From an uncultured bacterium (GTDB lineage Bacteria > Bacillota > Clostridia > Lachnospirales > Lachnospiraceae), in NCBI GenBank assembly GCA_947177425.1, contig CAMWUN010000005.1, positions 1 through 64,000 on the forward strand: a stretch of 64,000 nucleotides of DNA, written 5' to 3'. Shown here piece by piece: positions 20,044 to 63,474 of this stretch (the first letter of the stretch is position 1; each line of letters opens with the position of its first letter). Made by a program: the position numbers and the translations under genes. The notes below the pieces were generated by a model that saw only the letters and a program-made list of their open reading frames with translations, did no database searches and had not been told where the DNA came from.

Positions 20044-20088
20044 GTTAAACGACGGATGTCAGGCTTAGCCAGCCATCCTTATGTTAAC
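20044..20088 (-). repeat. Dispersed REP-like palindromic repeat, module A
   Basis: Read on the minus strand this is GTTAACATAAGGATGGCTGG and continues through an imperfect palindrome (GGATG...CATCC). Nearly the same 37 bases recur at 34018-34055, and a shortened form at about 42728-42752. It lies in the 5' region of purA next to a module-B repeat. Confidence 0.75.
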
Positions 20089-20094
20089 ATGAAC

Positions 20095-33722: not shown

Positions 33723-33769
33723 AAAAAGAGCCAGTAACCTGCATTTCCATGCACTTACCGGCTCTTTTA
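33723..33769. terminator. Terminator of small-protein gene copy 1
   Basis: AAAAGAGCCAGTAA pairs with TTACCGGCTCTTTT around a 17-base loop with one mismatch. A and T tails on both sides make it potentially bidirectional. The same hairpin is found in copy 2. Confidence 0.85.
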
Positions 33770-33812: not shown

Positions 33813-33998
33813 CTATTTCTTTAACATCTGATAAACAAGGGCTGTATTGGTATTTCCCGACATTGCAAGCATGCCGCATGCGATTTCCGCACCATGCTCT
33901 TCCATTGTTGTCCTGAAATATTTTGCAATTCTCTCCTTAAGGGATACTCTGTTTCTGCCTTCTGTATAGGCTTTTCCTTTTAATGCTATTGTACTCAT
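33813..33998 (-). CDS. 61-residue small protein, copy 1 (unknown function)
   Basis: The small, basic, soluble protein starts MSTIALKGKAYTEGRNRV and ends YQMLKK. It has no signal peptide, membrane helix or double-glycine leader, and a single Cys (EIACGML). GAGAGGT precedes the ATG and a strong terminator follows. The near-identical copy at 42522-42707 differs at 11 of 186 bases, 8 of them synonymous (protein changes K/E, H/Y, T/A). That pattern supports a translated, selected gene. I do not recognise the family. It lies just downstream of the ABC operon terminator and has its own 5' region. Confidence 0.8.
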   Translation of the reverse strand: MSTIALKGKAYTEGRNRVSLKERIAKYFRTTMEEHGAEIACGMLAMSGNTNTALVYQMLKK

Positions 33999-34017
33999 AA
34001 CTTAACCTCTCTTTCTT

Positions 34018-34055
34018 TTTAACATAAGGATGGCTGGCACAGCCTGGCATCCGTT
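34018..34055 (+). repeat. Dispersed REP-like palindromic repeat, module A (second copy)
   Basis: TTAACATAAGGATGGCTGGC followed by an imperfect palindrome (GGATGGCTGGC...GCCTGGCATCC) matches 20044-20088 read on the opposite strand. A module-B-like stretch (about 34053-34092) follows directly, as it does at purA. Confidence 0.75.
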
Positions 34056-34159
34056 GTTACAATAAGTTAAACCGCGAAGCATGGCAGCGTTTGCTGCTGT
34101 TTTGCTTTCGCTTTACATGTTATATCTTACAGCTTAAAAAAGAGGAATTCTAGGTTGGA

Positions 34160-34190
34160 TTTTGACTCTTTTTAAGGCAATATTGACTTT
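34160..34190. promoter_or_regulatory. TTGAC direct repeats spaced 21 bp (copy 1)
   Basis: TTGAC starts at 34162 and again at 34183, two helical turns apart, inside TTTTGACTC...ATTGACTTT. Equivalent pairs are at 42838/42859 and, reading the minus strand, at 42364-42389 before the GH39 operon. A 21-bp period suits AraC-type DNA-binding domains such as that of the YesN-like regulator encoded nearby. Confidence 0.6.
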
Positions 34191-42361: not shown

Positions 42362-42392
42362 AAGTCAAAATTGCAACATAAAATGTCAAAAC
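42362..42392 (-). promoter_or_regulatory. TTGAC direct repeats upstream of the GH39 operon
   Basis: On the minus strand TTTTGACATTTTATGTTGCA continues into a second TTTTGACTTTATA, the TTGAC cores 21 bp apart. It closely resembles the elements in both small-protein modules (shared GCAATNTTGACTTT). It lies about 110 bases before the GH39 start. The core promoter between it and the gene is not obvious. Confidence 0.55.
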
Positions 42393-42432: not shown

Positions 42433-42477
42433 AAAAGAGCCAGTAACCTGCATTTCCATGCGTTTACTGGCTCTTTT
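42433..42477. terminator. Terminator of small-protein gene copy 2
   Basis: AAAAGAGCCAGTAA pairs perfectly with TTACTGGCTCTTTT; A- and T-rich tails allow function in both directions. The stem differs from copy 1 by a base change that repairs the mismatch. Confidence 0.85.
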
Positions 42478-42707: not shown

Positions 42708-42837
42708 AACTTAACCTCTCTTTCTTTTTAACATCAGGATGGCTGGCATCCTTTGTCACAATAAGCTGTTTTTGTTTTCGCTTTCGCTTTACATGTTATA
42801 TCTTACAGCTTAAAAGAGAGGAATTCTAGGTTAGATT

Positions 42838-42887
42838 TTGACTCTTTTTAAGGCGATATTGACTTTTCATTTCACTTTTGCTAAATT
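42838..42887 (+). promoter_or_regulatory. TTGAC repeats (copy 2) overlapping the AraC-gene promoter
   Basis: TTGAC starts at 42838 and 42859. The second one also forms a -35 (TTGACT, 42859-42864) with TAAATT 17 bases later (42882-42887), placed to transcribe the AraC gene at 43001. A regulator bound here could act on both the small-protein gene and the AraC gene. Confidence 0.5.
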
Positions 42888-60405: not shown

Positions 60406-61230
60406 CTATATGGTTTCCAGTCCCACATCCATGCTTCCCGAACGGAATCCCTCCAGATCCAGGGTTACATAAACATATCCTAATTCTTTCAGACAGGAGA
60501 CAATTTCATGCTTCCGCTTTACCACTTCTCCCAATGCATCCCCGTCCACTTCGATTCTTGCTATGGTTCCGTGGACTCTGATTCTCACATTTTTAAAGCC
60601 AAGGCCCTTAAGATACGTCTCGCCCCTTTCTACCCGCTCCATATCCTTGTAGGACAGGGCTGTTCCGTATGGAAATCTTGTGGCAAGACAGGGCATGGAA
60701 GGTTTGGACGCCGTCTCAATCCCGTACTCTGAGGCAAGTTTTCTGACTTCCTTCTTGGTAAGGGCCGCTTCCGCTAAGGGGCTGATGATTTGAAGTTCCC
60801 GCAAAGCCCTGATTCCCGGCCTGTATACATGAAGGTCATCCTCATTGGTTCCCTCTAAAATAATGCTGATTCCAAGTTCCGCCGCTTTCTCCTTTATTTG
60901 GGTAAAAAGATGTCTCTTACACAGGTAACAGCGTTCCGGCGGATTGCCCATAATACCCGCTTCATTCAGCTCGTCTATGGCAATCACTATATGCCCGGCT
61001 TTCATCCTCTGGCAGATTCTCTTTGCTTCCTCTATCTCTCCCATAGGGTGCAGCATGGTCTGCATGGTGACGGCGTATACCTGTGTCCCCCTCTCCCCTG
61101 CCATGTCGCAGGCAATTTTGAGGAGAAGACTGCTGTCAACGCCCCCCGAAAAAGCAACCATCATATCCTGCCCGGCATATTCCCACATTTTTTTTAAAAG
61201 TTTTTCCTTTTTTATCTGCAAATCACACAT
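60406..61230 (-). CDS. larE: LarE sacrificial sulfur transferase (nickel-pincer cofactor)
   Basis: The PP-loop ATPase motif AFSGGVDSSLLLKIA begins at about residue 26. The segment ASKPSMPCLATRFPYG contains the Cys that in LarE of Lactobacillus plantarum gives up its sulfur. A further CYLCKRH lies at about 100. LarE converts the two carboxylates of P2CMN into thiocarboxylates. GGGAGA precedes the ATG. It follows larC by 57 bases and closes the lar operon. Length (274) is normal. Confidence 0.95.
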   Translation of the reverse strand: MCDLQIKKEKLLKKMWEYAGQDMMVAFSGGVDSSLLLKIACDMAGERGTQVYAVTMQTMLHPMGEIEEAKRICQRMKAGHIVIAIDELNEAGIMGNPPERCYLCKRHLFTQIKEKAAELGISIILEGTNEDDLHVYRPGIRALRELQIISPLAEAALTKKEVRKLASEYGIETASKPSMPCLATRFPYGTALSYKDMERVERGETYLKGLGFKNVRIRVHGTIARIEVDGDALGEVVKRKHEIVSCLKELGYVYVTLDLEGFRSGSMDVGLETI

Positions 61231-61287
61231 ACGTTCTCCCTGTCATATCTCTATTGTTTGTGCTGTCAGACCGCTCTCTGCCTGACT

Positions 61288-62700
61288 TTATACTGTATGC
61301 CTGAAAGCATCCATTATCTGTCCCAAGGTGCAGCCCTTTTCTTTTGCCAGCTCCACAACACTATCATATTCCGGGTAACACCTCACCTGTCCGTCCGGCA
61401 GGGTACATTTCTTCACCTTAAGTTCCCGCCCGTCAATCATAATGCTTCCGCTTTTCCTTGGCAGGATCGTGCGTTCCATCTTCATGCGCCGGATTCCTAT
61501 CGTAGTGGTCTCCTCAAAAATAATCTGTTCCAGCTTTCCAATACTGCTTTCATCACAGATAACCGTCAGTTCATATGCAGGACGGTTCTTTTTCATATAG
61601 ACAGGAATAAAGTGTGCATCCCTGGCCCCTGCTTCCAGCAGCCGTTCCATTACATAGCCCAAAATTTCCCCAGTACAGTCATCAATATTGGTTTCAAGTT
61701 TATAGATAACATCTTCCCGGTTGTCTTCCCCGGCGCAATCTTCCGGCTCTATCAGTATTGCCCGAAGCAGGCTGGGTCTTTCATAACTGCGTTTTCCTGC
61801 GCCCATCCCCGTTTTCACTATTTTAAACTGTTCCGGGAGCCTTGACGATGTCATTACCGCCGCCGCAATTGCCGCCCCTGTGGGCGTTACCAGCTCCCCC
61901 TTCACTTCCGTAATTCTGACCGGAAGCTGGCAGGCTTCCATAATATTCACCACCGCCGGAACCGGAACCGGGAGAATCCCGTGCTGACACCTAACCGTTC
62001 CCGTTCCTTCACACACAAAAGGCACTATCACTTCTGTAATGTCCAGATTGTCCAGACATACTGCCACTGCAACAATATCCACAATGGAGTCCACTGCTCC
62101 TACTTCGTGAAAATGCACCTGCTCCATGGATACCCCATGGGCCTTTGCCTCTGCTCTGGCCAGTATGTGGAAAATTCTGGCTGCAGTGTCCTTTGCGCGA
62201 GCCGTTATCTTTGCTTTATCTATGATATCCAGAATTTCCGGCAGTCCCCTGTGCTCATGAGGATGCTCGTGGACATGCTGCTTTACCTCACCATGATAGT
62301 GATGTTCATGACCGTGTGCTTCCGCTTCTCCATGATGGCTGCGTTCATGGCCATGTCCTATCGCTTCTCCATGATGGCTGTGTTCATGGTCATGTCCTAT
62401 CTCTTCTCCATGATGATTCTCATGTCCTTCCCCGCCGTGTAGATGCCCATGGTCATGACCATGCAGATAGGTCATGTCGTGGTCATGGTTTTCGTGGGAC
62501 GTATCCAGCTTCACAAGAAAATCACACACATCAAGCCCTGCTTTTTTTACCCTGGTTATTTCAACCGAAAATCCCTTTACCGGAAGACTGTCCAATGCAT
62601 CCCCAAGAACCTGCTTATCCGCTCCAATATCCAGCAGGGCCGCTACTGCCATATCGCCGCTGATTCCCGAATTGCATTCCAGATATAATGTCTTTCCCAC
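61288..62700 (-). CDS. larC: LarC nickel-insertion cyclometallase with His-rich repeats
   Basis: It starts TLYLECNSGISGDMAVAALL, the LarC signature, and continues with VHFHEVGAVDSIVDIVAVAV and LETNIDDCTGEILGYVMERL. It inserts nickel into P2TMN to make the nickel-pincer cofactor, in the cytoplasm. Residues about 69-150 form a His-rich stretch with four 13-residue repeats (HHGEEIGHDHEHS type), probably a nickel store or relay. The start is a GTG 3 bases after the larB stop with AATAAAGG ahead. It is one continuous frame, unlike L. plantarum larC, which needs a programmed frameshift. Confidence 0.96.
   Translation of the reverse strand: MGKTLYLECNSGISGDMAVAALLDIGADKQVLGDALDSLPVKGFSVEITRVKKAGLDVCDFLVKLDTSHENHDHDMTYLHGHDHGHLHGGEGHENHHGEEIGHDHEHSHHGEAIGHGHERSHHGEAEAHGHEHHYHGEVKQHVHEHPHEHRGLPEILDIIDKAKITARAKDTAARIFHILARAEAKAHGVSMEQVHFHEVGAVDSIVDIVAVAVCLDNLDITEVIVPFVCEGTGTVRCQHGILPVPVPAVVNIMEACQLPVRITEVKGELVTPTGAAIAAAVMTSSRLPEQFKIVKTGMGAGKRSYERPSLLRAILIEPEDCAGEDNREDVIYKLETNIDDCTGEILGYVMERLLEAGARDAHFIPVYMKKNRPAYELTVICDESSIGKLEQIIFEETTTIGIRRMKMERTILPRKSGSIMIDGRELKVKKCTLPDGQVRCYPEYDSVVELAKEKGCTLGQIMDAFRHTV
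62260..62415 (-). repeat. 39-bp tandem repeats inside larC encoding His-rich 13-mers
   Basis: About four tandem units of 39 bases, two of them nearly identical (CTTCTCCATGATGGCTG with minor changes on the plus strand). They encode HHGEEIGHDHEHS, HHGEAIGHGHERS, HHGEAEAHGHEHH and a more diverged YHGEVKQHVHEHP. The period is a multiple of three, so copy-number change keeps the reading frame. Confidence 0.9.
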
Positions 62701-62703
62701 CCT

Positions 62704-63474
62704 TTATTCTCCTTCCTGTCTGCATCCCAGCCTGTTAATCTGGGTTGCAATATATCCGGCTCCGTAGCCATTGTCAATATTTACCACTGCAATGCCGTTG
62801 GCACAGGAGTTAATCATGGTCAGCAACGCAGAAAGCCCATGCATACTTGCCCCGTACCCCACAGAGGTCGGCACGGCAATCACCGGCCTGCTCACCAGCC
62901 CACCGATTACACTGGCCAGAGCGCCTTCCATGCCTGCCACTGCCACCACACAGTTGGCCCCCTGTATGGTATCTATCCGGGAAAGAAGCCTGTGCAGGCC
63001 ACTGACTCCCACATCATAAATCCGCTCTACATAAGAGCCGAAATACTCCGCTGTCTGAGCCGCCTCCTCCGCTACCGGAATATCCGCCGTACCGGCTGTG
63101 CACACTGCAATCTTTCCATATCTGACTTTGCCCGGCTTTTCCAGTTTCAATATACGGGATGTCCTGTCATAAGACACTTCAGAAAGAACGGCTTTAACCA
63201 GCCGGAACTGACGTTCGTCCGCTCTGGTTCCGAATACTTCCCCATTTCTCTCAAACAGCTTCTGGTAAATGGACACCAGATATTCGTCCTGCTTTCCGCT
63301 GCAATAAACCACCTCCGGGAATCCTGAACGAATCTCCCTGTGAGTGTCCAGCTTCGCATAACCCAGCTCCTCAAAAGGCTGCTTTCTGAAATATTTTTCC
63401 GCTTCCTCCACAGTTATGCTTCCTGCTTTTACCTGTTCCAATACTTCTCTTGCTTCCAACCAGGCATCCTCCAT
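62704..63474 (-). CDS. larB: LarB P2CMN synthase (carboxylase/hydrolase of NaAD)
   Basis: The N-terminal half has family motifs (VEEAEKYFRKQPFEELGYAKLD). The C-terminal half is PurE-like: VAVAGMEGALASVIGGLVSRPVIA and GYGASMHGLSALLTMINSCANG. LarB carboxylates and hydrolyses nicotinic acid adenine dinucleotide to form P2CMN, the first step of nickel-pincer cofactor synthesis. ATG at 63474. It lies 3 bases before larC and about 90 bases after an ECF-type ATPase gene, in one likely nickel operon. No larA racemase is visible in the window. Confidence 0.95.
   Translation of the reverse strand: MEDAWLEAREVLEQVKAGSITVEEAEKYFRKQPFEELGYAKLDTHREIRSGFPEVVYCSGKQDEYLVSIYQKLFERNGEVFGTRADERQFRLVKAVLSEVSYDRTSRILKLEKPGKVRYGKIAVCTAGTADIPVAEEAAQTAEYFGSYVERIYDVGVSGLHRLLSRIDTIQGANCVVAVAGMEGALASVIGGLVSRPVIAVPTSVGYGASMHGLSALLTMINSCANGIAVVNIDNGYGAGYIATQINRLGCRQEGE

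Follow-up and report, generated by a model that had tools for sequence, protein, structure and literature searches.

A microprotein gene family and a putative AraC-type activator in Lachnospiraceae

Two microprotein genes and the promoter ahead of them

The window, by which we mean the whole 64,000-nucleotide stretch of Lachnospiraceae DNA that was analysed, contains two copies of a 61-codon gene, the second of them divergent from a gene for an AraC-family regulator (Table 1). The two encoded proteins are identical at 58 of 61 residues. An earlier sequence-only reading had counted eight synonymous and three non-synonymous changes between the copies; this count proved exact, and the dN/dS recomputed from it is 0.087. 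The matching ribosome sites that it described were found again as AGAGG in the leaders of both copies, as were the strong terminators, which are near-identical and have a 13-bp stem (z about -6). On sequence grounds, the gene and its paralogue are real and protein-coding. Indels separate the two leaders. That of copy 1 also holds a palindrome-like element (GGATGGCTGGC...GCCTGGCATCC, about 34013-34058) which occurs a second time at 20048-20093 and looks like an intergenic repeat.

Table 1. Features of the microprotein genes, their regulator and the related sister-clade loci
Feature	Position	Strand	Basis or remark
Microprotein gene copy 1, 61 aa	33813..33998	(-)	ORF; dN/dS 0.087 against copy 2; homologues; no adjoining AraC gene
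Microprotein gene copy 2, 61 aa	42522..42707	(-)	Paralogue ORF; divergent from AraC gene
AraC-family regulator, cupin AraC_binding + HTH_18, 282 aa	43001..43849	(+)	Domain matches; co-occurrence with promoter
GTCAA direct repeat, copy 1, 21-bp period	34162..34187	(-)	Putative AraC-type activator site
GTCAA direct repeat, copy 2, 21-bp period	42838..42863	(-)	Putative site in AraC/microprotein intergenic region
-10 box TAAGAT, copy 1	34124..34129	(-)	32 bp after second GTCAA
-10 box TAAGAT, copy 2	42800..42805	(-)	32 bp after second GTCAA
Intrinsic terminator, copy 1	33725..33767	(-)	-24.8 kcal/mol, z -6.1
Intrinsic terminator, copy 2	42433..42477	(-)	-24.8 kcal/mol, z -6.2
Sister-clade repeat region, genome G315	L074 1269-1370
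Sister-clade repeat region, genome G314	L082 1264-1354

Ahead of the microprotein genes stands the consensus GTCAATATyGnCnTAAAnnnnGTCAA, with its half-sites 21 bp apart, and in most of the 29 distinct promoters the -10 box follows 32 bp after the second GTCAA. A good -35 is missing, which would fit an activator-dependent promoter. When the 4.2-Mb home genome was searched with this strict pattern (up to 3 mismatches), exactly two sites were returned, both before a microprotein gene, and the reversed control returned none. A looser search of the same genome gave 25 candidates, compared with 11 for the reversed control; additional, weaker targets are therefore possible. Control of the LytTR/AgrA type, which the 21-bp repeats had suggested, was dropped since the constant neighbour is an AraC gene.

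Some promoters lead elsewhere. At G198 (L134, 7292 onward), promoter and AraC gene are followed by a 70-aa ORF that does not resemble the family and may encode another output protein. No recognisable ORF follows the promoter in G359 C141 or in G136 C59, and in the latter (L146, 7031) a perfect site has on one side the gene for an AraC-type regulator of 839 aa and on the other a short stretch that contains a terminator and no clear ORF.

Between the two copies lies an operon for a GH39 protein, a histidine kinase, a response regulator, a solute-binding protein and permeases. The small protein had been described as the neighbour of a sugar-sensing operon; the GH39 operon does lie next to it here, but the link is not general, for the operon is absent at other loci and the AraC gene is the only constant neighbour. 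A function read from the GH39/ABC operon was rejected as a general rule for the same reason. Inspected by eye, the neighbours at other loci include lar-like nickel-cofactor genes, alpha-glucosidases, ABC exporters and unrelated genes, and sugar genes are frequent near microprotein loci without being constant. As the neighbours differ from locus to locus, the context does not name a partner for the microprotein. We also noted a weak GTCAA repeat in the opposite orientation (42364-42389) just upstream of the GH39/two-component/ABC operon, through which this operon may possibly be co-regulated. Additionally, the window carries larE/larC/larB-like genes (nickel-pincer cofactor; Ni_insertion domain confirmed) at 60406-63474, and in Lachnospiraceae 1XD21-87 (L003) such genes stand beside the AraC/microprotein pair.

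The AraC-family regulator and its co-occurrence with the promoter

The product of the gene divergent from copy 2 carries the domains of the AraC/XylS group (PF12833, 3.4e-20; PF00165, 4.6e-13) together with a cupin domain (PF02311, 25.9 bits against a cut-off of 21.1). At many other loci a full-length homologue, 36-91 % identical, adjoins the microprotein gene, and in most of these adjacent pairs the promoter site sits in the gap between the two divergent genes; in G303, G325 and G316 the AraC gene occurs without an adjacent microprotein gene.

Regulator and promoter are distributed together. Among 37 genomes of the same genus, the AraC orthologue (E <= 1e-89, the next best match being at 1e-44) and the promoter (0-2 mismatches) were found in the identical nine, for which Fisher's test gives 8e-9, a value that overstates independence because the genomes of a genus are related. 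Of 397 genomes of the family, 17 carry the regulator, 20 the strict site and 13 both (2e-16). The four genomes with a regulator and no strict site carry variants of it, recognised by inspection after the fact: G148, G243 and G357 have a 22-bp spacing, and G273 has two mismatches. Repeats with a period of 21-22 bp co-occur with the AraC regulator; for AraC/XylS proteins, binding to direct-repeat half-sites separated by some two helical turns is characteristic. Where a family genome has the promoter only, its site in most cases carries one mismatch and does not appear to be conserved. A sample of 196 genomes of the class, mostly from outside the family, yielded no regulator at E <= 1e-45 besides the home genome's own. 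The claim that the small gene is regulated is strongly supported by these sequence data, through the unique promoter and the co-occurring AraC regulator.

A tree built from 48 AraC proteins places the regulators of the module in one clade (support 94/94), whose sister clade is about 32 % identical to it. With two sister-clade members, those of G314 and G315, the GTCAATATyGAC repeat is found again, there ahead of a divergent gene that encodes a GH3 C-terminal domain, and a scan of the sister clade found most of the other members to be without the two-half-site repeat. The presence of the repeat before a GH3-type glycosidase gene in these two genomes implicates the AraC protein as its binder, and we regard the regulator as the likely binder of the GTCAA repeat. 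A related regulator may thus be paired with a similar site even when an enzyme is the target, which also points to carbohydrate sensing. The best reading of the arrangement is that the AraC regulator and the microprotein would constitute a self-contained, dedicated pair, with two copies served in the home genome.

The microprotein family in Lachnospiraceae

No family of Pfam, NCBIfam, PHROG or PADLOC matches the microprotein, in keeping with the earlier statement that its family was not a known one, and the family is new to these libraries. A sequence search of the PDB with it gave a single match at chance level (E 0.085). A mobile or phage origin was rejected, since PHROG gave no convincing match and PADLOC none, and an RNA element was rejected on an Rfam scan of the window, which returned a tRNA and no other match.

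The absence of homologues beyond the strain had been named as grounds for giving up the family; homologues were found well beyond it. Close relatives of the 61-aa protein occur in Lachnospiraceae 1XD21-87 (85 %) and MGBC000137 (47 %), shorter ones of 41-43 aa, with the consensus MSIVxLKxNIxKYFExHxxEIMCSLAxLxxNSNAxExYLLLxK, in the same genus; profile and promoter searches led to more distant forms in other genera. Altogether, about 16 genera of Lachnospiraceae have similar proteins of 29-67 aa behind the promoter, the smallest of which, with 29 aa, is that of G265. They share one layout: after an N-terminus that varies comes an amphipathic segment of about 20 residues, and then a short tail in which (A/S)M(S/N)G often precedes an end with a tyrosine. 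Most homologue pairs have a dN/dS of 0.05-0.25, which, with the value between the two copies, upholds the idea of purifying selection on a new small-protein family. The types of microprotein track the regulator clades (the KRNSYxLLN type, for instance, goes with the regulators of G107, G264 and G299), and G299 holds two very different types in one regulator genome. In G264 (L047, 8216-12003), four tandem 48-aa paralogues are preceded by three copies of the promoter.

As the sequence-only reading had it, the microproteins are without a secretion leader and without a membrane-spanning segment. The AlphaFold model places a helix at residues 20-46 with low confidence (pLDDT 62), and the predicted fold, one long helix and a short second one, is offered with equally low confidence. 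Probably, the microprotein has an amphipathic helix and acts through binding a partner.

Proposed mechanism and comparison with known systems

The best explanation of the whole, to which we assign a probability of roughly one half, is that an AraC activator switches on a microprotein which acts on a partner protein, in a layout like that of SgrR and SgrT. The cupin N-terminus of the activator would sense a small, probably carbohydrate-derived ligand, and the activator would bind the two GTCAA half-sites 21-22 bp apart, a binding that we infer because of the co-occurrence and because two sister-clade regulators have the same repeat. Sitting just upstream of a promoter with a -10 box only (no -35 consensus), it would turn on a monocistronic gene, in this genome in two copies, whose product would be a leaderless protein of 29-67 aa with a predicted amphipathic helix. 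Since all strict sites found in the genome precede its gene, the microprotein would be the regulator's main output. We hold this course of events, from sensing and binding to promoter activation and main output, to be highly probable; judged by sequence, the genes, the promoter, the coding constraint and the co-inheritance of the module are real. After translation, the helix would dock on a partner protein, most likely in the cytosol, and the most plausible effect would be the damping of a sugar-uptake or catabolic protein, as SgrT blocks PtsG under SgrR control. This choice of partner class is tentative and, in our estimate, falls somewhat short of an even chance; the candidates comprise a sugar-uptake protein, the regulator itself and a receiver outside the cell.

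The regulator itself is the partner in another explanation, whereby the microprotein would bind and shut off its own AraC-type activator in a delayed negative feedback, as ANR proteins of Gram-negative pathogens do (Aar on AggR, Rnr on RegA). The strict pairing with one AraC regulator, the activator-dependent look of the promoter and the matching of microprotein types to regulator clades all speak for it, as do two traits of the ANR proteins: their size is alike (39-80 aa), and each is switched on by the AraC protein that it inhibits (PMC4038620). However, no NCBIfam or Pfam match, hence no detectable kinship, ties the microproteins to a named anti-AraC family; the genome has no other strict target, which would leave a pure loop without output; and the regulator genome G299 has two very different microprotein types. 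We consider such feedback unlikely, and equally so the broader proposal that the microprotein is a direct ligand, anti-activator or peptide signal, of its own AraC/cupin regulator in a stand-alone AraC-peptide circuit across gut Lachnospiraceae. If it were true, the output of the sensor would serve also as its input.

An exported peptide made on an AraC cue, either a pheromone-like signal or a leaderless antimicrobial, would account for short, leaderless and diverse sequences, down to 29 aa, and for several paralogues per genome, such as the tandem genes of G264. We find it quite improbable, however, for a net charge between 0 and +7, many acidic residues and the lack of a leader or membrane helix argue to some degree against an export peptide of the bacteriocin kind, no exporter, immunity or processing gene is conserved around the microprotein loci, and purifying selection is strong. 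Leaderless bacteriocins are cationic and come with transporter/immunity genes; by charge, acidic residues and the lack of a conserved exporter or immunity gene nearby, the likeness to them also fails. Lastly, the transcript may act as a regulatory RNA, alone or in addition as SgrS does, with the ORF secondary. The monocistronic transcript with its strong terminator agrees with this, and so does G136 C59, where promoter and terminator enclose no clear ORF, but Rfam gave no match and constraint is strong at the codon level, while the leaders of the two copies differ by indels; we hold this to be very improbable.

To our knowledge, most bacterial microproteins come without a known regulator or a testable context. 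The family described here is accompanied by a regulator of its own, an operator that can be read and a clear on/off pattern across the phylogeny, whereby ligand, regulon and partner become directly testable. Should the SgrT-like explanation be true, a dominant family of the gut would have a microprotein that brakes its use of sugar; should the feedback explanation be true, an AraC anti-activator would exist beyond the Gram-negative ANR family. A literature search for the combination of AraC regulator and microprotein found no paper on this exact combination and nothing on point more loosely. While the family is new to the libraries searched, its kind, an activator with a dedicated microprotein, has precedents.

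In the SgrR/SgrS-SgrT system of Enterobacteriaceae, the activator gene adjoins the gene of a microprotein of about 43 aa, and few targets of the activator are known (PMC4021124; PMC3901232). The module described here resembles it in the adjoining genes for activator and microprotein, the conserved intergenic promoter, the intrinsic terminator and the few targets. It differs in that SgrT, which binds PtsG, is encoded within a base-pairing RNA, and in that the systems belong to different bacterial phyla with no sequence kinship seen between them; SgrR, moreover, is not known to be an AraC protein, unlike the regulator here. Embedding in an SgrS-like RNA was not found, the Rfam matches in the window being limited to a tRNA. 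The ANR proteins, with 39-80 aa and genes activated by an AraC-family protein (PMC4038620), share with the microproteins the small size, whereas they have been described in Gram-negative bacteria; promoter and co-occurrence suggest that the microprotein genes, too, may be activated by an AraC protein. Among 11 microproteins scanned, none matched an NCBIfam or Pfam model above its cut-off and none hit a model naming ANR at E <= 0.1, a comparison made through family models. The AraC_binding/HTH_18 glycosidase regulators of G314 and G315 share the GTCAATATyGAC repeat and the divergent target gene, although the target there is a GH3-type glycosidase gene and here a microprotein gene. By analogy, we judge SgrR-SgrT to be the best counterpart in layout of the AraC/microprotein pair, with feedback of the ANR type as the main rival.
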